A DNA stretch of 21,245 bases from a virus. Location: positions 1 to 21,245 of the IMG/VR virus record IMGVR_UViG_3300025151_000368; one strand, written 5' to 3'. Position numbers and translations under genes: made by a program. The notes under the pieces are model-generated. The model did not search any database, was not told the origin of the DNA, and saw only the letters and a program-made list of their open reading frames with translations. Shown here piece by piece: positions 11,363 through 20,814 of this stretch. The number at the start of each line of letters is the position of its first letter. The stretch's first letter is position 1.

Positions 11363-11526
11363 TAATTTAAAAAGAAGTTTTCAGCTTCTACCTCATCTTT
11401 TAATTCTTGTTGAAACGTTGTATTTAATTTTTGTATAATAGCATCAAGATCTCTTACTTGTGCATCAGCCACGTCTTGTCTATATTCTTTACTAGGTCTT
11501 GTTAATATTTGTACTATCTTTGCCAT
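11362..11526 (-). CDS. Small coiled-coil-like protein (54 aa) in the virion operon
   Basis: The frame runs from the ATG at 11526 to TAA at 11364-11362. The product reads MAKIVQILTRPSKEYRQDVA, then DAQVRDLDAIIQKLNTTFQQ, then ELKDEVEAENFFLN. The central region has helical, heptad-like spacing of Val, Leu and Ile and probably forms a coiled coil. The ATG overlaps the TAA of the nozzle-like gene, and its TAA overlaps the next ATG, both as TAATG, so it fits exactly between its neighbours with no leftover bases. That tight fit on both sides is the main evidence that it is translated. The role is unknown; a small assembly chaperone or connector protein is possible. Confidence 0.65.
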   Translation of the reverse strand: MAKIVQILTRPSKEYRQDVADAQVRDLDAIIQKLNTTFQQELKDEVEAENFFLN

Positions 11527-13682
11527 TATCTTCTTCCATCCGGTTGTATATCTAATCTAAATCCACCAAGTTTCCAACTTTGCTCTGCAGCTGTATTTGC
11601 AACTTTTAAAGATACCGCTCTAGCCCTAGCTCTCGTATCAACTTTTTCCGTTGACGATGAGATTGTAAAAGGACCAAGAGCTGAACTTGCCTCAGTATTA
11701 TTTGGAAAATTTCTTAAGTTTAATGTTATTTGTGTGTTACCTGTTTGTGATAAAAAGTCAGGAATAAATCTTCTAATCTTTGCAAAAAACTCACCATCAC
11801 CACCTTGACTTATATCAAAGTCTCCTGATTGTATGTTAGAAGTTACGGCAGTAGTTGCGGTAGATGTAACTTGATCTGTGCCTGTTTCATGTTCATAATA
11901 TATTGTACAACCGTCTGTATTACCAACAACATCATAAGAGTTGTTTGAGTCAGCATCATAATCTGTAGCGTGAGGTTTTCCAAAAACAGCAGAATCTTGC
12001 CACGTTGTTCTATCTAGTGTGCCCGTTGTCCATATTGGTCTTTGTGGTGAAGACTCAAAATAATTATATGTTACTACTCTGTCAACAACTGTTGATCCAG
12101 AAGAACAATAAAACCAATTAATTTCACCAAACAAATTATTTAGTCCAGCATTTATAAGTTGATTAGCTGTGGTGTTTAAATTATCAAAAACAAAATCTTC
12201 AACTAAACATGGTAAAGATTGTAGAGCACCAGCATATTTAAAGAAACCATTTTCTGAAAACCAATACGCAGCTCCATCAACCTCAATAGCAGCGTTTTGT
12301 CCTATCAATCCACAGTTTGTTCCTACTTGAGCAAAACCAAAAGTAAATGGTGGACCGATAAATCTTTGTGTAAATAAAGCCGTGTCAGTCCAAACATAAA
12401 TTGCATCTCTACCTCTAACTGCTCCCATAATTCTTGAACCATCTGCAAGCCTCTGTGTGCCGGCTGTATTCGTCGCTGTAGGTGTATAAGAATTAATATT
12501 TTCTTGATCAGAGAATCTAATAAACATTTGATCTTGCGAAGACTGATCTCCTATTGTTGTTTCTGTTCCAAAGAATACTAAGTGTCTGTCCGGTGTGGAT
12601 ACGATCATATCTCTCGATGCTGTTGGCGCACCTGTAATAATTGTAGCTCTGGTTGCATTTGCAGTGACTGAATCTGAGTTCCATTCAAAAACTTGTCCGT
12701 TATGTATCAATGCAATAATCTTACTACCAAAATTATCAATAGACCAAAGACCTGGATCAATAACTAAATCTCCAGATGCTGCCTCGCCCCACGCTACGAA
12801 GTCTGAAGTATTTGTTACAGTGGCTCCATCTGAGTGTGCAGCTCTTGTTGTGTTTCTAACCGCTCTTGTAATTCCTGTTAAGTTGTTGCCAGAAACTCCT
12901 GTGTAAGATATTTCTTCTGTTCCTACTTTTATAAAGTTTGTTCCTGCTGATGGAAAGTTTGTTGTGCTTGTTAACGTAATAGAACTTCCTGATCCTCCTG
13001 TTCCATTAGCATCATTTAACAAAGCGCCATTTAAAGTTGTTGTTTGTGGGTTTGCAGCTTCACCGCCCCAAGAACCTAAGCCCCAACCAAATCCAGGTAA
13101 TTGTTCTGCAGGTCCAACTGGATAATATATTTGAACTCTTATACCTCCAGACGTTGTAGCTCCAGATCCAGTCTCATTTGAAGGCATTGTAATTGTAATC
13201 GTTGTGTTAGTTGGTGCACTAACGACCATGAATTTTTTATCGTCAAAATCAGAGGCACTGTAATTAGAGTTTGTGATAGCTGTAAAATTATCTAATAAAA
13301 TTACATCACCAGCGTTTAAGCCATGACCCGTAGAAAAAGTTATGGTAACAGTTGGAGATCCATTAGTTGTGCTAAAAGCATTGGTTAAAGTTGTAGTGGA
13401 TTTAATTGGGTGTATATCATAAAACACTCCGCCTGAGTAAGCATATAGTATTCTGTTAGTTCCTATTATAGAATATTTTATACCACTACTATTTACAATG
13501 TGATGCATAGCTCTAGCAGCTCCAGTTATTTTATCAGTTCCTAGTTGTTGCCATCCACCTATTTTTTCAGGTGAGCCATATCTAAATCTAACATTATCAC
13601 CGTCAACCCACTGTCCTTCTGCTTGTGTTTCGGTAAGTTGTTTATTAAATCCAGGTAAAAATTGTACTTTTCGTAAAGCCAT
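11526..13682 (-). CDS. Tail nozzle/hub-like protein (P22 gp10 / T7 gp12-like), 718 aa
   Basis: The 718-residue product begins MALRKVQFLPGFNKQLTETQ, then GQWVDGDNVRFRYGSPEKIG, an opening I recall from marine phage tail proteins. The body is beta-rich with repeated blade-like pieces: RILYAYSGGVFYDI, KIIALIHNGQVFEW, RHLVFFGTE, DAIYVWTDTALFTQRFIG and GQNAAIEVDGAAYWFSENGF. That is what a beta-propeller nozzle protein such as P22 gp10 or T7 gp12 would show. Residues about 240-290 hold an inserted module (VGTEEISYTGVSGNNLTGIT) resembling small beta domains in phage tail proteins. The C-terminus is basic then beta-rich (VDTRARARAVSLKVA). No clear Shine-Dalgarno precedes the ATG at 13682, but a promoter-like site at 13713-13741 does. 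The fold assignment is inference from pattern and context. Confidence 0.75.
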   Translation of the reverse strand: MALRKVQFLPGFNKQLTETQAEGQWVDGDNVRFRYGSPEKIGGWQQLGTDKITGAARAMHHIVNSSGIKYSIIGTNRILYAYSGGVFYDIHPIKSTTTLTNAFSTTNGSPTVTITFSTGHGLNAGDVILLDNFTAITNSNYSASDFDDKKFMVVSAPTNTTITITMPSNETGSGATTSGGIRVQIYYPVGPAEQLPGFGWGLGSWGGEAANPQTTTLNGALLNDANGTGGSGSSITLTSTTNFPSAGTNFIKVGTEEISYTGVSGNNLTGITRAVRNTTRAAHSDGATVTNTSDFVAWGEAASGDLVIDPGLWSIDNFGSKIIALIHNGQVFEWNSDSVTANATRATIITGAPTASRDMIVSTPDRHLVFFGTETTIGDQSSQDQMFIRFSDQENINSYTPTATNTAGTQRLADGSRIMGAVRGRDAIYVWTDTALFTQRFIGPPFTFGFAQVGTNCGLIGQNAAIEVDGAAYWFSENGFFKYAGALQSLPCLVEDFVFDNLNTTANQLINAGLNNLFGEINWFYCSSGSTVVDRVVTYNYFESSPQRPIWTTGTLDRTTWQDSAVFGKPHATDYDADSNNSYDVVGNTDGCTIYYEHETGTDQVTSTATTAVTSNIQSGDFDISQGGDGEFFAKIRRFIPDFLSQTGNTQITLNLRNFPNNTEASSALGPFTISSSTEKVDTRARARAVSLKVANTAAEQSWKLGGFRLDIQPDGRR

Positions 13683-13700
13683 AGTGAACCATTATACTAT

Positions 13701-13714
13701 TTTTTGATCAAAAA
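13701..13714. promoter_or_regulatory. Perfect palindrome TTTTTGATCAAAAA
   Basis: A perfect 14-base palindrome lies at the predicted transcription start of the promoter at 13713-13741. It could be an operator half, a DNA bend or simply A+T-rich sequence. It lacks the G+C stem needed for a terminator. Confidence 0.3.
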
Positions 13715-13741
13715 TATAGTCCATTTATGGACCTTAATCAA
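13713..13741 (-). promoter_or_regulatory. Promoter-like site before the nozzle/ejection gene block, with a dyad in its spacer
   Basis: On the minus strand TTGATT (13741-13736) and TATATT (13718-13713) are exactly 17 bases apart, giving a start near 13706 and a leader of about 24 bases to the ATG at 13682. The spacer contains the dyad GTCCAT-AA-ATGGAC (13732-13719), which could be an operator. The same dyad followed by TATATTTTT could alternatively act as a weak terminator for the oxygenase genes. The place, between two gene blocks in the only sizeable gap of the region, favours a regulatory role. Confidence 0.45.
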
Positions 13742-13746
13742 GGATG

Positions 13747-14319
13747 CTACCAGACCCAACTTATGAAAGAATATCTTTTTCCTTTAGTTACGGGCTCTAC
13801 TTTATGTGGATATAGAAAAGAAGATGGAAATATTATTAAATCACCAGTCTTAAAATTAATTCTTTTATCCTCACAGATAATAAAATCACCACCTTCATAA
13901 TTATCATTTAACACTCCTAAACAACTTAGTATTGGAATACCTCTTGTTTCTCCATCAAATAAAGTTGTGATATGATCACAGTGTAGAGCCATCTTTTTCT
14001 TACTGTGGTATCTATTGTATCTTATTAGTGAGTATCCAGACCAACCTCCAAACCACGGCATATCTAAACCACTAATATAATTTTTAATACTGTGCCATAA
14101 TTCATCCATAATCTTTTTCGATAGTTTTAAATTACCATCGATTAGTATGTCATTTTCATATTTACCTGATACCTTTTCATATTTACGTGTTCGTTCATTA
14201 TGAAAAATATGTGACTCCCATTTTTTAGATTTTTCTATTTCTTTTATCCCCTTTTTACAGATATCTTTATCTAAAAAATTTTCTATTTTTATTATGTATT
14301 TTTCTAAATTTTTATCCAT
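13747..14319 (-). CDS. 2OG-Fe(II) oxygenase, PKHD/prolyl-4-hydroxylase-like (HxD type)
   Basis: This 190-residue protein has the classic facial triad: H113 and D115 in ALHCDHI, H172 in YPHKVEP, and a probable 2-oxoglutarate-binding R182 in GKRYSF, ten residues after the distal His. Surrounding elements support the family: RGIPILSCLGVLNDNYEGGD, then INFKTGDLIIFPSSFLYPH, then RYSFISWVW. I recall this pattern from PKHD-type hydroxylases of marine phages. Such enzymes couple decarboxylation of 2-oxoglutarate to hydroxylation of a substrate using Fe(II) and O2; here the substrate is unknown, with protein prolyl or other side chains most likely by similarity. The N-terminal 60 residues are Lys/Glu-rich. 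It is the last gene of the cassette; 64 bases of regulatory-looking DNA separate it from the nozzle gene. It starts two bases after the preceding stop. Confidence 0.85.
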   Translation of the reverse strand: MDKNLEKYIIKIENFLDKDICKKGIKEIEKSKKWESHIFHNERTRKYEKVSGKYENDILIDGNLKLSKKIMDELWHSIKNYISGLDMPWFGGWSGYSLIRYNRYHSKKKMALHCDHITTLFDGETRGIPILSCLGVLNDNYEGGDFIICEDKRINFKTGDLIIFPSSFLYPHKVEPVTKGKRYSFISWVW

Positions 14320-14321
14320 AA

Positions 14322-14936
14322 CTATAAAACTAACTCTCCATCCTTTTCACCTATTTTACCTTTTGGTAAAAAATTAGCAGCTATAGAATACCTTGTTGTG
14401 TTTGATTTATTAAAATCTATCTTATGATTAATATTCGCTGGGAAAACTATTAAATCACCTTTTGTTATTTCTTGTGTCCAAGACAAACAATTTAATTCAT
14501 TATAATGTATTATTGGTATGTCATAATGTTGTTTTATTTGTGGAAAGAATTTTATTCTATACTTATCTTTAGTCGTGCCGTGAGGATAATAACAACACGT
14601 AAACCAAAAATTATTATGTGAGTGTATTTCGCCTACAACACCTTTAGTTGTTTTTGTACCCCACATATTTACTAAATTAACATCTGTTTTATATTTAAAT
14701 ACTTCTTGAATTGCAGAACGCACATAAATTTCTAAAACATTTTTTAATTCTTTTCCCTTTTTTATTTTATTAAAAATTTTGTTACTTTTTGTAATTTCTG
14801 TTTGAGCAGCATCACATTTATCATATTTTATTTTTTTAAGTTCTTTATAAATTAAATTATGATCAAAATTTATATTAGAAAAAACAACGTAAGCCGAAGG
14901 GAATAAGTATTGAAAGCTAAATTTTTGTTCCATCAT
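14322..14936 (-). CDS. 2OG-Fe(II) oxygenase-like protein (HxH type)
   Basis: This 204-residue protein matches the general 2OG-Fe(II) oxygenase layout with an HxH proximal motif: H105 and H107 in GEIHSHNNFWFTCCYYPHG. The distal H171 is in VFPANINHKID and R182 is in TTRYSIAANFLP, 11 residues further on. The strand pattern ITKGDLIVFPANINH...RYSIAANF is typical of the distal half of the barrel. The motif HSHNN in place of HxHP suggests a divergent member of the TIGR02466/PF13759-like group. The double Cys in FTCCYY is unusual next to a metal site. Two ATG codons are in tandem; the first (14936) overlaps the upstream stop as ATGA. Substrate unknown. It could be a catalytically altered paralogue. 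Confidence 0.75.
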   Translation of the reverse strand: MMEQKFSFQYLFPSAYVVFSNINFDHNLIYKELKKIKYDKCDAAQTEITKSNKIFNKIKKGKELKNVLEIYVRSAIQEVFKYKTDVNLVNMWGTKTTKGVVGEIHSHNNFWFTCCYYPHGTTKDKYRIKFFPQIKQHYDIPIIHYNELNCLSWTQEITKGDLIVFPANINHKIDFNKSNTTRYSIAANFLPKGKIGEKDGELVL

Positions 14937-15469
14937 AGTTTATCAAAAGCTGCTTTTTCTACAGGATGCCAATTAAAAGCTAATCCATATTTAAATTTAT
15001 CTGTAATATTTCTCTTACAGCCGTGTTGAAGAAAAGGTGAGAATAATATAAATTTACCTTTTGCTGGTTTTATTTTTTGATTTATTTCTGGAAAGTCTAA
15101 AGTCTGATGATGGTCATTTAAATAAATCACTCCTGATATTGAAGCTGGAATATGATTATGCATTTTTGTATAGTGTGAAAAACCCTCTCTATATCCCCAA
15201 GCACTATCTAAGTAATAAGGATAAGATATTAAATTATCGTCAATAAAATCTAATAATGGTAATATAGTTTGTATAAATTTTTTATCTTCATTAAAGTATT
15301 TAGGTGATGTCATTGGAGCAATAACATTTGTTCTATAACTTGCATTATTAGATTCTTTAACACCTTTTTCTATTTGTTTAATAAAATATTTAACATCAGT
15401 GTTAGTAAATCCTTCAACAAAAAAATAATCTTTTTTTACTTTAGATAATATTTTATTTTTTATTTGCAT
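14933..15469 (-). CDS. 2OG-Fe(II) oxygenase-like protein (HxH type, Lys replacing the usual Arg)
   Basis: At 178 residues this is the second shortest in the cassette. The proximal motif is H104/H106 in KMHNHIPASISGVIYLN, whose SGVIYL continuation is the clearest family signature (compare SGVYYL in TIGR02466-type proteins). The distal His is H149 in LFSPFLQHGCK. At the position where relatives have R-x-S (11 residues on), this protein has K160-Y-G in FKYGLAFNW, so the usual 2-oxoglutarate-binding Arg is replaced by Lys. It may bind the cosubstrate through Lys, use a different cosubstrate, or be inactive. The ATG at 15469 lies ten bases inside the upstream gene in a different frame, and its stop overlaps the next ATG, so it is translationally embedded in the cassette. 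Confidence 0.72.
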   Translation of the reverse strand: MQIKNKILSKVKKDYFFVEGFTNTDVKYFIKQIEKGVKESNNASYRTNVIAPMTSPKYFNEDKKFIQTILPLLDFIDDNLISYPYYLDSAWGYREGFSHYTKMHNHIPASISGVIYLNDHHQTLDFPEINQKIKPAKGKFILFSPFLQHGCKRNITDKFKYGLAFNWHPVEKAAFDKL

Positions 15470-16116
15470 ATAGGTTGATCAATATCAAGCATAACATTAC
15501 CAGAGATACTTATACGTTCTTTATTAGAACTATAAAAAGGATAAACCACGTGTTGTAATTGAGAAGGAAAAAACACCATAGTGCCTTCATAGTCTTTATT
15601 TAATTTAAAATCATGAGCTGAAATTCTACCTAAACTACTAAGATATATAAATGAAAACTTACCAGCAGAAGGAGAATTAGAATGTTTTACAAAAGAAACA
15701 TCATATTCTTTTTTACAATCATACGGAATCTTTACCCAAATAACAAACGAGTATAAACCTGAGTGATTATGAATAGGATTAAATTCATTTTTCTTTTGAA
15801 AATTAACCCAAAGTCTGTCTAAATAAAATTTGCAGTCTTTATTTAATATAGTGGGATTAAATTCTTCACTAAATTTATTAAAAGCTTTGTTATAAATACT
15901 AATACAAGGTGTAATTAAACTTTCTTCAAACCATTTTTTATCATCAAGATTAAATGAATTACTTATGTTTCCAGCTAAAATATTATTAATTTTATTGTTT
16001 TTATTTTTAACAGTTTCCTTAACCTTTCTTTTAATTCTATCAAAATACTCTTTAGGTAATTTAAGTTTTAAATAACCTGGTGTTTGAAAAGGATGTGCTT
16101 CTATTTTTAAATTCAT
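15460..16116 (-). CDS. 2OG-Fe(II) oxygenase-like protein (HxH type)
   Basis: This is the longest of the six (218 residues). Its N-terminal half is Lys/Asn-rich and resembles the N-terminal domains of TIGR02466-type oxygenases. The core has RLWVNFQKKNEFNPIHNHSG with proximal H116 and H118, followed by LYSFVIWVKIP. The distal part reads MVFFPSQLQHVVYPF with H189, then ERISISGN with R201, 12 residues after the His. The family pattern H-x-H, FPSxLxHxVxP and ERISISxN is complete, so the protein could be active. The sequence between the two halves (KHSNSPSAGKFSFIY) is longer than in its neighbours and may form the substrate lid. Substrate unknown. The ATG overlaps the stop of the upstream gene as ATGA, and its last ten bases overlap the next gene. 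Confidence 0.78.
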   Translation of the reverse strand: MNLKIEAHPFQTPGYLKLKLPKEYFDRIKRKVKETVKNKNNKINNILAGNISNSFNLDDKKWFEESLITPCISIYNKAFNKFSEEFNPTILNKDCKFYLDRLWVNFQKKNEFNPIHNHSGLYSFVIWVKIPYDCKKEYDVSFVKHSNSPSAGKFSFIYLSSLGRISAHDFKLNKDYEGTMVFFPSQLQHVVYPFYSSNKERISISGNVMLDIDQPICK

Positions 16117-16754
16117 AATTTTGCGTAGGTTAGTTCTTCTTTTGAACCTACCTCTCCTGTTAAACGAGTGTTAAAAGCTAAACTAATTCTTAAATTATCT
16201 TCTTGCTTTTGTATTACTGAGTGTTCAGTGCCTGATGGAAATATAACTATTGTTGATGCATCCACTGGTATTGTCCAGTTATCACTATTCCAAACATTGT
16301 ATTCTTTATAATTTCTTAAATCAAAATTATAACCATAAGGTGCTCCAAATTTATGTCTGTAAAATCTTATGTTATCATATAATTTATTTGCTTTAATATA
16401 TAACACACCAGAAATATAACTATTTGGGTGAGCATGTTTATGGTGAAATTCTTTTTTTCTACTATAGTTTAACCAAGATTGTGTAAGATGAATTTTAACT
16501 TTATCTTCAATACGTAAGATGTGCTTCATGTATTCGTTTATATGGAACTCTACTTCTTTTTTAACACTTTTAAATACAGGTAAATTTAATATAAAATTAT
16601 TATTAGTTGTTCTATTACCTTCATTTTTATGTGTATCTATTTTAAAAGATTCAAATTTTTTAATTAATTTTTTATCTAAAGGTTTTTTCAAAGCTCTTTG
16701 ATAAATAGGTGTAGCAAATAAGCTGTGAATAATTATGTTTTCAATATCTTTCAT
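16113..16754 (-). CDS. 2OG-Fe(II) oxygenase, TIGR02466/PF13759-like (HxH type)
   Basis: This 213-residue protein is the most typical TIGR02466-like member of the set. Its N-terminus IHSLFATPIYQRALKKPLDK matches the LFxTPIY opening I recall for that family. The core reads QSWLNYSRKKEFHHKHAHPN with H107 and H109 of HAHP, followed by SYISGVLYI. The distal half reads STIVIFPSGTEHSV with H178, then LRISLAFNTRLTGEVG with R189, 11 residues later. All expected metal and 2-oxoglutarate residues are present. Members of this family are common in marine phages but their substrates are not established as far as I know. It starts one base after the stop of the first cassette gene and ends in an ATGA overlap with the next. 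Confidence 0.85.
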   Translation of the reverse strand: MKDIENIIIHSLFATPIYQRALKKPLDKKLIKKFESFKIDTHKNEGNRTTNNNFILNLPVFKSVKKEVEFHINEYMKHILRIEDKVKIHLTQSWLNYSRKKEFHHKHAHPNSYISGVLYIKANKLYDNIRFYRHKFGAPYGYNFDLRNYKEYNVWNSDNWTIPVDASTIVIFPSGTEHSVIQKQEDNLRISLAFNTRLTGEVGSKEELTYAKL

Positions 16755-16755
16755 T

Positions 16756-17241
16756 TTACATTTTTAAATTTATGTTTACGTTAACTCTTACAGTTTCATC
16801 TGTTTGATTAACAGAACAATGTTTTAATTTACCATCAAATAATACTAATTGATTAGCTAAAGATTTTATACGATCGCCATTTTTAAACAAGGTATATCCG
16901 TTATTAGTATTAATAGAGTACAAAGCAACTGTATGTTTATTATTAGGAAAATCTACATGATAAGCAGTTTGAATATGTTTTGGTTTTTTTGTGTAAAAAT
17001 TTAATTTAGCTCTAATAAGTTTAGTGAAAGTTAATTTATCTAACAAAGGCACTATAATATCTTTGTGGTAATCACTGTTTATTTTATCAAAATGATAAAA
17101 AATATGTGTGAACATATAATCAGATTTATCTTTTTTACCTGCTACTGTATCATGATAAAACAACGGAAAATTATCTCCAAATACAATATCATATATTTTT
17201 TTATGTATCTTACGATCTAAAAAATTGTTTATGACTTTCAT
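16756..17241 (-). CDS. 2OG-Fe(II) oxygenase, PKHD-like (HxD type), first gene of cassette
   Basis: This is the shortest of the six (161 residues) and close to a minimal oxygenase core. The N-terminus MKVINNFLDRKIHKKIYDIV fits the opening helix of prolyl-hydroxylase-like proteins. The triad is H95 and D97 in TAYHVDFPN, and H141 in LKHCSVN. R152 is in ETVRVNVNINLK, 11 residues later. ALYSINTNNGYTLFKNGD and ANQLVLFDGKLKH between them match the NTNxGYTxFxDG and ENRxVxFDxxxxH strands of phage PKHD-type enzymes. It should be catalytically competent; the substrate is unknown. It has a weak ribosome site (AAGAAAGA) and is preceded by a 45-base gap that contains a 19-base inverted repeat. It probably shares transcription with the tail genes upstream. 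Confidence 0.83.
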   Translation of the reverse strand: MKVINNFLDRKIHKKIYDIVFGDNFPLFYHDTVAGKKDKSDYMFTHIFYHFDKINSDYHKDIIVPLLDKLTFTKLIRAKLNFYTKKPKHIQTAYHVDFPNNKHTVALYSINTNNGYTLFKNGDRIKSLANQLVLFDGKLKHCSVNQTDETVRVNVNINLKM

Positions 17242-17266
17242 TCTTATCTTTCTTATATCTTATTTT

Positions 17267-17285
17267 AATACTTTTTAAAAGTATT
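17267..17285. repeat. Perfect 9-bp inverted repeat (AATACTTTT-T-AAAAGTATT)
   Basis: The two nine-base arms are exact complements around a single base and lie one base before the stop of the 154-codon gene, at the entry side of the oxygenase cassette. The arms are A+T-rich and no T-run follows in the direction of transcription, so it is a poor intrinsic terminator. It may be an operator, a weak RNA hairpin between the two blocks or a recombination scar. Confidence 0.4.
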
Positions 17286-17286
17286 C

Positions 17287-17751
17287 TTAAACTTCTTTTC
17301 TAGGTACCATTACCCAAGAAGTAGTCTCTTCATTCCATTCATAGTTGTCATTATCTAGAATAGTATTGCCTTCTTCATCTTTTAAAATATTTCCATTTTC
17401 ATCAAATTTATCAAGGTTTTGCGTATAAGTTATAGGTTCTGCAACTGGAGCTACATATATACATTTATCTTCATCTAAAACCCAAGAAGGATATGGTTTT
17501 GGTGGAATAAAGGCATCTCTGCTTTCATCATAGCTGTATCCAACACCAGCAAAATTTTTTCTAAAAGGTGTTCCACCTTTTAAATGTGTTCCTTCAAAAG
17601 TATCAGGATCTGTTTTTTTCCAAACGTGATCTGTTTTAAAAAGATTGTTTATAAAAGCAACACCTGCCTCCTCTGTAGGACACTCATTATCGTGAATAGT
17701 TATTCCTTTTACAACTATATTGAATTCATTTAATTTAACAAAATCTGCCAT
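17287..17751 (-). CDS. Tail-associated conserved phage protein (154 aa)
   Basis: This 154-residue protein is of a type I recall in many marine phages. The key segment is GGTPFRKNFAGVGYSYDESR, followed by DAFIPPKPYPSWVLDEDKC. Near the C-terminus is NDNYEWNEETTSWVMVP. Related proteins lie among tail-fibre genes of cyanophages and pelagiphages and are considered virion or tail-associated, without a defined function. The insert FDENGNILKDEEGNTILDND (about 115-134) is acidic and likely flexible. The ATG overlaps the TAA of the glycine-rich gene (TAATG), so both should be produced together, possibly as partners in the adhesin complex. It is the last virion gene before the oxygenase cassette. Confidence 0.7.
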   Translation of the reverse strand: MADFVKLNEFNIVVKGITIHDNECPTEEAGVAFINNLFKTDHVWKKTDPDTFEGTHLKGGTPFRKNFAGVGYSYDESRDAFIPPKPYPSWVLDEDKCIYVAPVAEPITYTQNLDKFDENGNILKDEEGNTILDNDNYEWNEETTSWVMVPRKEV

Positions 17752-18665
17752 TATGCTGTGTAACTCCCTGACCCAGTAAAAGTAATAATAGTATCACTAC
17801 CATCAGTTGCTGTTTGTGGTGATCCTGTAGTTTGGCTAGAAAAATTAGCAGTCGGAACTCTTAAAAGAACAACTCCACTACCGCCTGATCCTGATGAACG
17901 GAAAGGTCCGTCGTGGTGAGATCCACCTCCACCGCCTCCAGTGTTTGCTTGTCCTGATGTTCCATTTCTTGCAGGTGTTGGACCAATTGAGTGTGAACCA
18001 CCTTGTCCACCACCGCCTTGTCCGCCAGTTCCGGTATTTCTTTCACTACCTCCACCGCCGCCACCAGCTCTAAAAGTTTGTGATCCTGTGATTGCAGATT
18101 GTAAACCATTTCCTCCGCCACCACTGTTACCAAATCCTGGTGAGCTGTCTCCGGATGCTCCAGCTCCTCCGCCGCCTCCAGCTCCGTTTCCGGCACCAGA
18201 TCCGCCGCCATTACCTTCATTAGATGTACCTGACCCAGCTGAACCTTGAGCACCACCGCCGCCACCGGATCCTCCAGTTTGACCAGTTCCGCCAGGGCCA
18301 CCGCCACCACCGCCGCCGACTGTAGTTACATCTGTTATATTTGCTCCAGTGATAGAACTTGCTTGTCCAGTAGTTCCTGCAGAACCACTAGAGTTTCCTC
18401 CGCCGCCGCCGTTTCCAACAGTAATAGTGTATACTGTTCCAGCAACAAACTCTAAAGGTGTCTCTGTTGATGAACCAGCTCCTGATTGCTCAGAAGAAAA
18501 AGAATTTCTATATCCTCCTGCGCCGCCGCCACCGCCAGATCTATTGTTAGGTGTGTTTGTGGATCCACCGCCACCGCCGCCTCCAGCGACAACAACGTAA
18601 GAAGCTTGATATTTTGCTTTTGCGCCCCCAGATCCAAAACCTAGTACTTGATATCCAAAACCCAT
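17751..18665 (-). CDS. Glycine-rich tail adhesin-like protein (304 aa)
   Basis: The product begins MGFGYQVLGFGSGGAKAKYQ, then ASYVVVAGGGGGGG. About residues 27-265 are dominated by runs of Gly with Ser, Ala, Asn and Thr (for example SGGGGGAGGYRNSFSSEQS). The run is broken only by short beta stretches such as LEFVAGTVYTITVGNGG. It ends with a beta-like segment (GSGVVLLRVPTANFSS and IITFTGSGSYTA). The VVAGGGGGG...GGGGAGGY layout is common in phage tail-tip proteins. Long Gly-rich repeats can pack as polyglycine-II sandwiches, as known for T4-like gp38 adhesins. A receptor-binding or fibre-tip role is therefore likely but inferred. GGN codons make this region locally G+C-rich and keep other frames open. 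An AAGGAGG ribosome site precedes the start and overlaps the upstream stop. Confidence 0.78.
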   Translation of the reverse strand: MGFGYQVLGFGSGGAKAKYQASYVVVAGGGGGGGSTNTPNNRSGGGGGAGGYRNSFSSEQSGAGSSTETPLEFVAGTVYTITVGNGGGGGNSSGSAGTTGQASSITGANITDVTTVGGGGGGGPGGTGQTGGSGGGGGAQGSAGSGTSNEGNGGGSGAGNGAGGGGGAGASGDSSPGFGNSGGGGNGLQSAITGSQTFRAGGGGGGSERNTGTGGQGGGGQGGSHSIGPTPARNGTSGQANTGGGGGGSHHDGPFRSSGSGGSGVVLLRVPTANFSSQTTGSPQTATDGSDTIITFTGSGSYTA

Positions 18666-18669
18666 TTAT

Positions 18670-18676
18670 CCTCCTT
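18670..18676 (-). promoter_or_regulatory. Consensus ribosome binding site overlapping an upstream stop codon
   Basis: AAGGAGG four bases before the ATG at 18665 shares its first two A's with the TAA stop of the 405-codon gene. Termination of the upstream gene places ribosomes directly at this site, which should favour high expression of the glycine-rich protein. Confidence 0.6.
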
Positions 18677-19892
18677 ATAGATCGTTAGCAGCGTCTGTTG
18701 TGAAGAATAATTTAATTCCTAGTAATTTAGCATCAGCTGTTAAAGAATCATCTGATACGTCTCTTGAGATTTCAAAGAACACTTGATCGCCTGCTGCTGG
18801 TGTGCCTGCGATAGTTATTGCTCCACTTTCTGCTGTTACGTCTAAATCGTTTGCCGTACCGCTGTGAGCTTTTGCAGTTGGTGCAACTGCTGTTCCAAAC
18901 GCTACGTTACAAGTATCGTCATCAGAAACTGCAACTCCTGCTAAATCCCAAGATACAGTCCCTGTGTTTGTTGAATCTGCTGTAAAGAATGCTTGAAAAG
19001 TTACTGTGCCTTCATTCCATGATTTAGGAAAAGCAACAGAAAATTGTGCAAACTCGTCTGAATCTTTATCAAAATCTAAAGATTTAAGTTCAGGGCCGTT
19101 AGATAATTCTGTTTGTGCTAAGTCTGCACAGCCGTTTGTTGAGTTAGGATACATAGCATTAGCTGGAACCCAAATAGTTTCTTTACCTGCTATTTTAACT
19201 GCAGATACGTTTCCACCACTGTCCTCAGCTTTAATTACACCTGTTCCTTTTGTTTTAAGATCAATACCAATGTTTGTGTCTCCACCTGTTGCTGCGAAAG
19301 AGGGGTTACCTGTTGCAGCAGCGTTTGCTATTGTAACTTCGTTAACAGCTGAACTTGTTGCTGTTAAAAGAGCTAATTCATTTCCGTTGGTATCTAAAAT
19401 AGAAGTTCCGATTTTTGGTGAAGTTAAAGTTTTGTTTGTTAATGTGTCTGTTGATGAAGCTGTAATAAAACCAGTGTCATCGATATCTGGGTTAGTTCCG
19501 TCATTAGCTGTTGCGTAAACTAATTTTACTGCACCTGGTGCAATAGTTACACTGTCTCCAGATCCTGATACGTATTTAAATACTACGTTCTGTGATCCAC
19601 TTGTTGAATTTTTTAAAATATAAAAGTCTTGAACATCTTTTGGAATAGTAACGTTTCTACTTCCAGTTAGTGATCCTGTAAATTCTATAATTCTGTGTGC
19701 AAGAGTTGCACCAGTTGATCCATCAGATACAGAAAGATCTGTATCTCCAGAATCTGATACGGCTTGTGTAGTAAAACCACCGGCTATTTGTTCAATAAGT
19801 TGTAAATTTGTATTAGTTTTAGTTCCCCACGTTCCGGCATTTTCACCAGTTGCCTGGAGTTCAATACCTAGAGGTGTAAATGTTGATGCCAT
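18675..19892 (-). CDS. Tail fibre/minor structural protein (TPLGIELQATGENAGTWG type), 405 aa
   Basis: The 405-residue product opens ASTFTPLGIELQATGENAGT, then WGTKTNTNLQLIEQIAGG, a signature I recall from tail-fibre or virion-surface proteins of marine phages. The composition (Thr, Ser, Gly, Asp, Val) and alternating strands, such as HRIIEFTGSLTGSRNVTIPK and NVVFKYVSGSGDSVTIAPGA, indicate an extended beta structure. The segment TDTLTNKTLTSPKIGTSILD is the TNKTLTSPxI element found in many phage fibres. The C-terminal about 150 residues are less repetitive (TFQAFFTADSTNTGTVSWDL) and could be the distal domain. There is no signal peptide, as expected. The ribosome site AGGAGAT (19904-19898) lies five bases before the ATG. 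The gene is flanked by other probable tail-surface genes. Confidence 0.78.
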   Translation of the reverse strand: MASTFTPLGIELQATGENAGTWGTKTNTNLQLIEQIAGGFTTQAVSDSGDTDLSVSDGSTGATLAHRIIEFTGSLTGSRNVTIPKDVQDFYILKNSTSGSQNVVFKYVSGSGDSVTIAPGAVKLVYATANDGTNPDIDDTGFITASSTDTLTNKTLTSPKIGTSILDTNGNELALLTATSSAVNEVTIANAAATGNPSFAATGGDTNIGIDLKTKGTGVIKAEDSGGNVSAVKIAGKETIWVPANAMYPNSTNGCADLAQTELSNGPELKSLDFDKDSDEFAQFSVAFPKSWNEGTVTFQAFFTADSTNTGTVSWDLAGVAVSDDDTCNVAFGTAVAPTAKAHSGTANDLDVTAESGAITIAGTPAAGDQVFFEISRDVSDDSLTADAKLLGIKLFFTTDAANDL

Positions 19893-19905
19893 ATTTTATC
19901 TCCTA

Positions 19906-20814
19906 TTATGCAGCGTCAGTATAACTTGTATTTGATCCGGTTGCAACATCTGTATACGAAGAATTTGAACCTGTGTCAACATCAGAATATGCTTGAATTC
20001 CAAAGCCTGTAGCAGAGCCAAAAACAGCAACTGAAACAGTTGCAGAAACTCCAGTTAATCCCATAACGTCAGCAGGTGCTAAAGATCCCACTGCAGAAGT
20101 AGAAGCTACACCAGTTAATCCCATAACATCAGCAGGTGATAAAGATCCTACTGCAGAAGTTATCGCTTGACCAGAAACGTCTACAATAGGGTTTGTACTT
20201 ATTTCTGGAGATCCAACAGAAGATGTTGCAGAAACACCTGTTAGTCCCATAACATCTGCTGGTGATAAATTTCCAACAGCAGAGGTAGAAGCTACTCCTG
20301 TTAATCCCATTACATCCGCTGGTGATAAAGAACCTACAGCAGAAGTTGCTACGCCTGCTGAAGATACAGAAAATTCTACGTCACCAATTATTGTTGGTGA
20401 TCCAACTGAAGGTGTAGAAGATACACCTGTTAATCCCATTACATCTGCTACTGTTAATGAAAATATACCCCAACCTTGACCTCGTCCCCATGAAGCATCA
20501 TTCCAAGCGTTTGCAGATACATTAGATTGTATTGCATCAGGAGCAGTTAGTTCAACTAACATACCTGATTCGCCCCAGGTTTCATTACCCCAGGTATCTT
20601 GACCCCAACCTTTATTTATTTCTGTTGAAACTGTTACTGAACCAATACTAGAAGTTATTGCACTTGGCGCTGTAAGAGTAAATGTTACATTATTAAGTTT
20701 TCCCCATTCACCATCATTCCAAGCCTGTGCACCAAAACCTAATGTAAAAGCATCTTGTGTGCCCCAACGGCCTTCGTTCCAGGTTGTTCCGGACTGGTTC
20801 CAAGTATTAGGCAT
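19906..20814 (-). CDS. Repeat-rich, Trp-rich virion protein (302 aa)
   Basis: The N-terminal 115 residues contain 11 Trp in repeated small motifs (NTWNQSGTTWNEGRWGT, QAWNDGEWG, GWGQDTWGNETWGE, NAWNDASWG). Residues about 123-270 hold five copies of ADVMGLTGV followed by (S/A)(S/A)T-x-x-VG, arranged as nested repeats. Two 11-residue units (TGSNSSYTDVA-like) lie at the C-terminus. Such W-rich and short beta-repeat proteins occur in the virion-surface genes of marine phages; a fibre or shaft role is likely but unproven. The repeats can change in copy number and so may vary in length between relatives. A consensus AGGAGGT ribosome site overlaps the upstream stop, eight bases before the ATG at 20814. 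There is no signal peptide or catalytic motif. Confidence 0.72.
   Translation of the reverse strand: MPNTWNQSGTTWNEGRWGTQDAFTLGFGAQAWNDGEWGKLNNVTFTLTAPSAITSSIGSVTVSTEINKGWGQDTWGNETWGESGMLVELTAPDAIQSNVSANAWNDASWGRGQGWGIFSLTVADVMGLTGVSSTPSVGSPTIIGDVEFSVSSAGVATSAVGSLSPADVMGLTGVASTSAVGNLSPADVMGLTGVSATSSVGSPEISTNPIVDVSGQAITSAVGSLSPADVMGLTGVASTSAVGSLAPADVMGLTGVSATVSVAVFGSATGFGIQAYSDVDTGSNSSYTDVATGSNTSYTDAA
19915..19980 (-). repeat. Two 33-base tandem units encoding TGSN(S/T)SYTD(V/A)A
   Basis: Two adjacent 33-base units at the 3' end of the 302-codon gene code for near-identical 11-residue repeats; a weaker partial copy precedes them (DVDTGSN). They keep frame and probably arose by slippage or unequal recombination. 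Confidence 0.5.
20048..20449 (-). repeat. Nested direct repeats encoding ADVMGLTGV (five copies)
   Basis: Copies start near 20048, 20108, 20234, 20294 and 20423. The spacings are 60, 126, 60 and 129 bases. The first four copies form two 60-base pairs offset by 186 bases, a tandem duplication of a unit that itself holds a tandem pair. All spacings are multiples of three, so the reading frame is kept. The copies differ by scattered, mostly third-position changes. Confidence 0.75.

Follow-up and report, generated by a model that had tools for sequence, protein, structure and literature searches.

Gene organization of the locus

We analysed the complete 21,245-base IMG/VR virus record IMGVR_UViG_3300025151_000368 (this whole stretch of DNA is referred to as the window), in which six consecutive open reading frames (ORFs), confirmed at positions 13747 to 17241 and all on the minus strand, encode proteins of the 2-oxoglutarate (2OG)-Fe(II) oxygenase type. 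Rather than an exceptional cluster, the six genes represent one form of a hypervariable array that is co-inherited with a putative tail adhesin module. The ORFs were named by coordinate, p6 being the first in the direction of transcription: p1 (13747..14319) encodes a PKHD-like oxygenase of family PF13640, p2 (14322..14936), p3 (14933..15469), p4 (15460..16116) and p5 (16113..16754) encode oxygenase-like proteins of family PF13759, and p6 (16756..17241) encodes a PHD-like oxygenase of phrog_274. Neighbouring ORFs are separated by gaps of no more than 2 nucleotides (nt) or overlap by 4 to 10 nt, in agreement with the tight packing within a virion gene block that a preliminary description of this DNA had noted.

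The flanking genes lie on the minus strand as well. Upstream are p7 (17287..17751), encoding a small tail-associated protein (phrog_7759, "MAHFA" family), the gene of a glycine-rich protein (17751..18665; PF21722, Pfam Gly_rich_2 match 5.2e-16, 36% Gly) that may be a distal tail adhesin, and a tail-fibre-like gene (18675..19892; phrog_31104), while the gene of a nozzle-like virion protein (11526..13682; phrog_3287) lies downstream. This order of fibre-like gene, Gly-rich protein, p7, array and nozzle holds across the group. The nozzle-like protein is ~50% identical to the nozzles of the cultured phages HTVC023P and HTVC027P and of 023Pt_psg01, which have the gene order in common with the window, and by these sequence criteria the phage resembles HTVC023P-type pelagiphages; the contig is a 21-kb fragment, and its relatives point to a SAR11 host.

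The six products are oxygenase-fold proteins

All of p1 to p5 exceed the curated Pfam cut-offs. The p1 protein matches PF13640 (6.9e-13) and phrog_61 (1.6e-31), and its sequence matches in PDB are the PKHD hydroxylases PiuC/Sbal_3634. The p2 to p5 proteins match PF13759 (6.3e-10, 3.8e-6, 1.7e-11 and 1.2e-19, respectively, p3 being barely over the cut-off at 27.6 versus 27 bits) and are assigned by PHROGs to phrog_81 (2OG oxygenase; 9.1e-24 for p2 and 9.3e-34 for p4). The cut-off of TIGR02466 (62.5 bits) is exceeded by p5 (66.2), with p2 (34.8), p3 (19.1) and p4 (34.8) below it. The p6 protein has no Pfam 2OG match, and its match in PHROGs is phrog_274 (3.4e-37).

Structures were predicted for the two weakest members, p6 and p3, with AlphaFold (AF2), and the models (predicted local distance difference test scores of 92 and 94.7) were compared with PDB by Foldseek. 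The 50 top-ranking PDB matches that were inspected comprised only 2OG dioxygenases and uncharacterised members of their family deposited by structural-genomics projects. Those of p6 were mainly HIF prolyl hydroxylases (PHD2 and Dictyostelium PHD), along with PiuC, and those at the top for p3 were 3bvc, the viral collagen prolyl hydroxylase vCPH of PBCV-1 (5c5t) and 2rg4, so that the nearest solved folds are mostly peptidyl-prolyl hydroxylases. The second-best distinct fold match of p3, vCPH, is likewise a virus-encoded peptidyl hydroxylase, but it comes from a eukaryotic virus, is a canonical 2OG prolyl hydroxylase and is only 19% identical to p3. Iterated profiles seeded by each of the six proteins retrieved, from 1959 ORFs of related loci, 222 to 254 members of a 261-ORF union each, and nothing from reversed sequences. 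All six are thus 2OG-Fe(II) oxygenase-fold proteins, p1 to p5 by Pfam and p6 and p3 by predicted fold; neither p6 nor p3 lacks the double-stranded beta-helix, and coordinates, Pfam and PHROGs matches and folds agree with the initial identification of six consecutive oxygenase-like genes between p7 and the nozzle-like gene. Recent tandem duplication was ruled out as the source of the six genes, the best match within the window having only 23% identity.

The motif on which that identification rested (His-x-Asp/His, a distal His and a basic residue) was likewise found in every member: H113xD115/H172 in p1, H105xH107/H171/R182 in p2, H104xH106/H149/K160 in p3, H116xH118/H189 in p4, H107xH109/H178/R189 in p5 and H95xD97/H141/R152 in p6. 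An Arg or Lys follows the distal His by ~9 to 12 residues in all six; in p1 and p4, to judge from the sequence, R182 and R201, respectively, are its likeliest positions, and in p3 and its family it is Lys. H95, D97, H141 and R152 do not vary among the 17 relatives of p6; among the 33 relatives of p3, the histidines H104, H106 and H149 do not vary either, and K160 is kept by at least 90%. HxD occurs only in p1 and p6, whereas p2 to p5 have HxH in place of the HxD/E of most of the superfamily; since the solved marine bacterial homologues 2rg4 and 3bvc carry HxH as well (by alignment), HxH is a family trait. On its own the motif is weakly diagnostic, being present in 24 of 235 size-matched unrelated ORFs (~10%) versus 246 of 254 family members.

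Relative to locus L092, five of the six genes (p3 excepted) are under purifying selection, with ratios of nonsynonymous to synonymous substitution rates (dN/dS) of 0.12 to 0.36 (p1 0.16, p2 0.15, p4 0.36, p5 0.12); the sole comparator for p3, L091, is near-identical and hence uninformative.

Arrays of six or more are routine in related phages

Related viral contigs were recruited with the nozzle and several oxygenase families as queries, no more than the best 80 loci per query being taken, which gave 295 loci after de-duplication; these contigs are fragments, and relatedness among the loci was controlled only in part, via permutation. Across the 295 loci, recruited partly by oxygenase queries, there were 1162 oxygenase-type matches and 31 complete runs of at least six genes (same strand, gaps below 250 nt), the longest, in L062, comprising 11. 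Where both flanks were present, the interval between p7 and the nozzle held at least one oxygenase in 104 of 108 loci (median 5) and at least six in 43; the 23 loci recruited by the nozzle only gave the same median of 5, with at least six in 7. The early view of the six genes as an unusual local expansion therefore fails, because rows of six or more are routine in the relatives and because expansions have already been published.

Among deposited isolates, Mosig EXVC030M has a run of six, and S-RSM4 has seven oxygenase-type genes after p7 with one small gene among them. The GenBank records of both resemble the window in having a fibre gene, small genes and then six to seven oxygenase-type genes, and in S-RSM4, a T4-like cyanomyovirus with a true p7 homologue, the matching order of Gly-rich gene, p7 and oxygenase-type genes is found. 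They differ in that both are myoviruses, that Mosig EXVC030M has a different PHROG at the p7 position and that the annotation of some of their array genes reads DNA endonuclease or ferrochelatase.

The available portions of earlier reports describe, in HTVC023P-type phages, eight non-orthologous 2OG genes that frequently lie close together and have "ferrochelatase" partners (PMC9599517), 24 2OG genes in the cyanophage S-SCSM1 (PMC9602691) and one to five in T4-like cyanophages, for which a nitrogen hypothesis was put forward earlier (PMC3037559). The HTVC023P-type phages belong to the same group as the window by nozzle homology and gene order. The accessible text of PMC9599517 calls its 2OG genes not adjacent and makes no link to adhesin swapping, whereas the runs seen here are adjacent, reach 11 genes and are tied to the module of Gly-rich protein and p7. 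The cyanophages share families PF13640 and PF13759 with the window, along with low identity between paralogues, but their 2OG genes are scattered over a larger genome and, in the portions available (PMC9602691, PMC3037559), are read as host metabolism genes with no adhesin linkage proposed.

The array is exchanged together with the adhesin side

Comparison of the window with close relatives revealed two reciprocal patterns. In loci L010 and L011, identity to the window is 86% (nt) over the nozzle and 76 to 77% (nt) over the fibre gene, with no match between ~13,725 and 18,630, whereas the match of L092 is confined to the interval of Gly-rich gene, p7 and array (82 to 85%, nt), stops at the borders of this interval and has different neighbours. 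Borders were located in 106 pairs of loci whose nozzles are near-identical but whose arrays are dissimilar. On the downstream side, homology returns at the nozzle start codon (median offset -3 nt); on the upstream side, most pairs lose it close to or ahead of the start of the Gly-rich gene, and five of the six window pairs shown lose it 32 to 44 nt inside that gene. The nozzle gene thus forms the fixed downstream border of a swappable island, and the fibre-like gene the conserved side upstream.

Covariation was evaluated in 88 loci (3828 pairs). Where p7 similarity was at least 0.7, mean array similarity was 0.80 with a minimum of 0.56 (22 pairs, in 18 of which nozzle similarity was below 0.7), and at p7 similarity of at least 0.6 the mean was 0.68 (permutation p 0.0005). 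Nozzle similarity of at least 0.8, on the other hand, went with a mean array similarity of 0.247, versus 0.242 for permuted labels (214 pairs, p 0.38), and the pair L246/L250 combines an array similarity of 0.94 and a p7 similarity of 0.95 with only 0.19 in the nozzle. Across all pairs the partial rank correlation is modest even for p7 (0.17, 0/500), because the majority of pairs are background. Adhesin similarity of at least 0.8, with the adhesin defined as the most Gly-rich gene near p7, went with a mean array similarity of 0.87 (11 pairs), and covariation was weak (partial 0.073, 74/500) when the gene directly upstream of p7 was taken instead; because the Gly-rich definition was picked after the first covariation result was known, the p7 result is the primary one. 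Simple proximity fails to explain the contrast between p7 and the nozzle, since they flank the array one on each side; an exchange of whole blocks between the conserved borders accounts for it.

Two observations on the arrays themselves can be added. In L092:8021-9279, compared with window 14322-16116, p3 is missing, cut cleanly between overlapping stop and start codons, which is gene-wise gain or loss; and in L033, L239, L246, L250, L265 and L266 the arrays are wholly or partly inverted relative to p7 and the nozzle, with the interval unchanged.

Composition of the module

A protein with at least 18% Gly lies within three genes of p7 in 88 of 88 loci tested, versus 12% of background proteins, and, in several phage families, p7 homologues adjoin a Gly-rich protein whether or not oxygenases are there. 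As described in the part of PMC9608196 available, the Gly-rich tips of Pam3 and S16 bear variable receptor-binding loops and bind host receptors, and the chaperone of the Pam3 tip is encoded by the neighbouring gene; Pam3 gp24/gp25 and S16 gp38 show the sequence of Gly-rich distal protein and small partner gene that is seen in the window, but differ in that this part of the report mentions no oxygenases there. From the adjacency and this parallel we infer that the Gly-rich protein of the window is probably the distal adhesin and p7 its partner. Sequence comparisons of p7 and of the Gly-rich protein with solved structures gave no match.

Besides oxygenases, the interval between p7 and the nozzle in relatives holds FAD (flavin adenine dinucleotide) tryptophan halogenases (PF04820), carbamoyltransferases (PF02543/PF16861), sulfotransferases (PF13469), methyltransferase-like proteins and JmjC/cupin proteins. 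This enzyme set resembles that of peptide or glycan tailoring, in which hydroxyls could possibly serve as acceptors of carbamoyl and sulfo groups.

Family labels and further features

The family of p6, phrog_274, carries the label "DNA endonuclease V" in PHROGs and GenBank, and the label is widespread in marine phages. Endonuclease V (T4 DenV) was rejected for p6 on the grounds that it matches no endonuclease Pfam family, has the invariant HxD...H...R and has a PHD-like predicted fold; by this prediction, phrog_274, with members at window 16756-17241, L005:8316-8798, L097:6255-6767, L099:6107-6637 and L336:6901-7380, is a PHD-like 2OG family.

The "ferrochelatase" label is attached to the neighbouring phrog_2954/3531 proteins (cluster c1, e.g., L007:8295-8915 and L010:4846-5529). 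Nine members gave no match to the ferrochelatase family PF00762 at E<=1, HxD and H are invariant across the phrog_2954/3531 proteins, and a 2OG profile trained without these proteins finds 72 to 79 of 140 at E<1e-3 in three iterations (reversed sequences, 0). The "ferrochelatase" of HTVC023P-type phages is therefore likely, as far as profiles can tell, another 2OG oxygenase family. PMC9599517 reads these partners as haem enzymes in the part available, whereas here they look like 2OG enzymes, and relabelling bears on the published pairings of 2OG with haem or iron metabolism (PMC9599517, PMC11561400).

In several relatives the first gene of the array belongs to cluster c7 (L005:7826-8329, L007:6542-7045, L010:2460-3014, L032:4509-5012 and L062:4082-4585), which is oxygenase-like with the metal-binding histidines lost and is a candidate pseudo-oxygenase. 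Family f8 (~110 amino acids, no Pfam or PHROG match; e.g., L246:1602-1931 and L092:9870-10085) lies between array and nozzle in ~30 of 100 loci. In a near-identical contig, the p5 ORF (L090:4984-5397) starts late (138 versus 213 amino acids), possibly by 5' disruption or assembly error. Upstream of the adhesin gene, window 18675-20814 holds the fibre-like gene and a gene for a tryptophan-rich repeat protein (WGxxxWN and DVMGLTGV repeats).

Proposed function and alternatives

The best-supported function, to which we assign a probability of roughly 0.47 and which ranks above passenger linkage and receptor remodelling, is that the array enzymes modify the linked tail adhesin. The swappable module would span ~13,683 to 18,630 and consist of the Gly-rich putative distal adhesin, p7 and the variable oxygenase array, and it would be exchanged as a block via recombination at two places, the conserved N-terminal region of the fibre/adhesin and the start of the nozzle. 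In the late phase of infection, side chains of the adhesin, of p7 or of both would be hydroxylated by the oxygenases, either ahead of tail assembly or while it proceeds; the halogenase, carbamoyltransferase, sulfotransferase and methyltransferase of relatives would supplement these hydroxylations or work alongside them, and each module would thereby bear its own receptor-binding chemistry. Of the substrates suggested at the outset, neighbouring tail proteins are favoured by the co-inheritance, and DNA or RNA bases are disfavoured.

Several observations weigh against this proposal: (i) the co-inheritance shows joint travel of the block and not enzyme action on the adhesin, and exchange between conserved borders would carry any passenger along with the adhesin; (ii) p7 and Gly-rich proteins occur without adjoining oxygenases in HTVC025P, CRP-207, Melnitz and Bellamy, so the enzymes are not obligatory, and some oxygenases of cyanophages and HTVC008M sit elsewhere, beside psbA or ssb; (iii) four of the six proteins (p2 to p5) lack the usual carboxylate ligand, which makes their activity uncertain; (iv) the Gly-rich protein has no sequence match to any solved adhesin; and (v) halogenase presence does not correlate with the Trp content of Gly-rich protein and p7 (13 versus 87 loci, p 0.76), nor array size with the Gly content of the adhesin.

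The likeliest alternative, although we regard it as unlikely, is that a tolerant, recombination-prone site between adhesin and nozzle gathers low-GC (guanine-cytosine) accessory genes and that the oxygenases serve host metabolism, block exchange being all that ties them to the adhesin. It would account for array genes lying below the nozzle in GC at 102 of 102 loci (27.7% versus 36.9%), for gene-wise gain and loss, such as the absence of p3 from L092, and for inverted or mixed-orientation arrays in 17 loci with other enzymes intermixed. However, the content is strongly biased to one fold (in loci recruited partly by oxygenases), the genes are under purifying selection, and the order of p7 plus array recurs in the T4-like cyanophage S-RSM4.

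Somewhat less probable is that the enzymes and transferases alter the receptor of the linked adhesin (lipopolysaccharide, surface glycan or protein), blocking superinfection or freeing progeny from debris. Such remodelling of the host surface predicts an identical co-inheritance with the adhesin, the sulfo-, carbamoyl- and methyltransferases of the interval suit glycans too, and lipid A and Kdo have known 2OG hydroxylases (LpxO and KdoO); yet the best folds are peptide hydroxylases, no LpxO/KdoO family was matched in the profile searches, and the genes lie within the virion block, which is late for a lytic phage to change a receptor.

We consider it improbable that the enzymes draw down 2OG or reprogramme host nitrogen or energy metabolism, as is proposed for cyanophages in the accessible parts of PMC3037559 and PMC9602691; HTVC027P infection does raise host iron uptake (PMC12753301), but drawdown needs one enzyme, whereas 66 clusters (40% identity) occur in a few dozen loci, and the fixed placement next to the adhesin and the co-inheritance with p7 are left unexplained. 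Modification of DNA or RNA bases, for which the DNA hypermodification genes of HTVC023P-type phages (PMC9599517, in the part available) might speak, is very improbable given the lack of any TET/JBP or AlkB family match for p1 to p6 in the profile searches, the location in the virion block beside adhesin genes and the unsupported "DNA endonuclease V" labels. Equally remote is the idea that some members are inactive oxygenase folds serving as tail parts or scaffolds, or in regulation, which would suit c7 without its metal ligands and HxH in place of HxD in four of the six window proteins but not the invariant ligand residues of the p6 and p3 families or the purifying selection.

Modification of the adhesin by the array enzymes could also be one instance of something broader. 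It is tentatively possible that marine phages carry mobile adhesin-tailoring cassettes, in which every tail adhesin is accompanied by its own hydroxylases, halogenases and carbamoyl-, sulfo- and methyltransferases, which build a combinatorial post-translational chemistry, akin to that of ribosomally synthesized and post-translationally modified peptides (RiPPs), on the receptor-binding tip. The linkage of the array to the adhesin module appears to be unpublished, and in the open literature we found neither phage receptor-binding proteins modified with hydroxylase and halogenase nor virus-encoded tail hydroxylation.

To conclude, phage 2OG oxygenases are among the commonest unexplained "auxiliary metabolic genes" of the ocean, and the customary view is that they reprogramme the metabolism of the host. 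The labels "DNA endonuclease V" and "ferrochelatase", both likely wrong, have influenced published accounts that invoke haem and iron. Since the arrays track the adhesin module rather than the backbone of the phage, a different and directly testable function suggests itself, in which the enzymes would chemically finish the receptor-binding tip, or else its receptor, and, if this holds true, tailoring cassettes would give host-range diversity a layer beyond amino-acid sequence.

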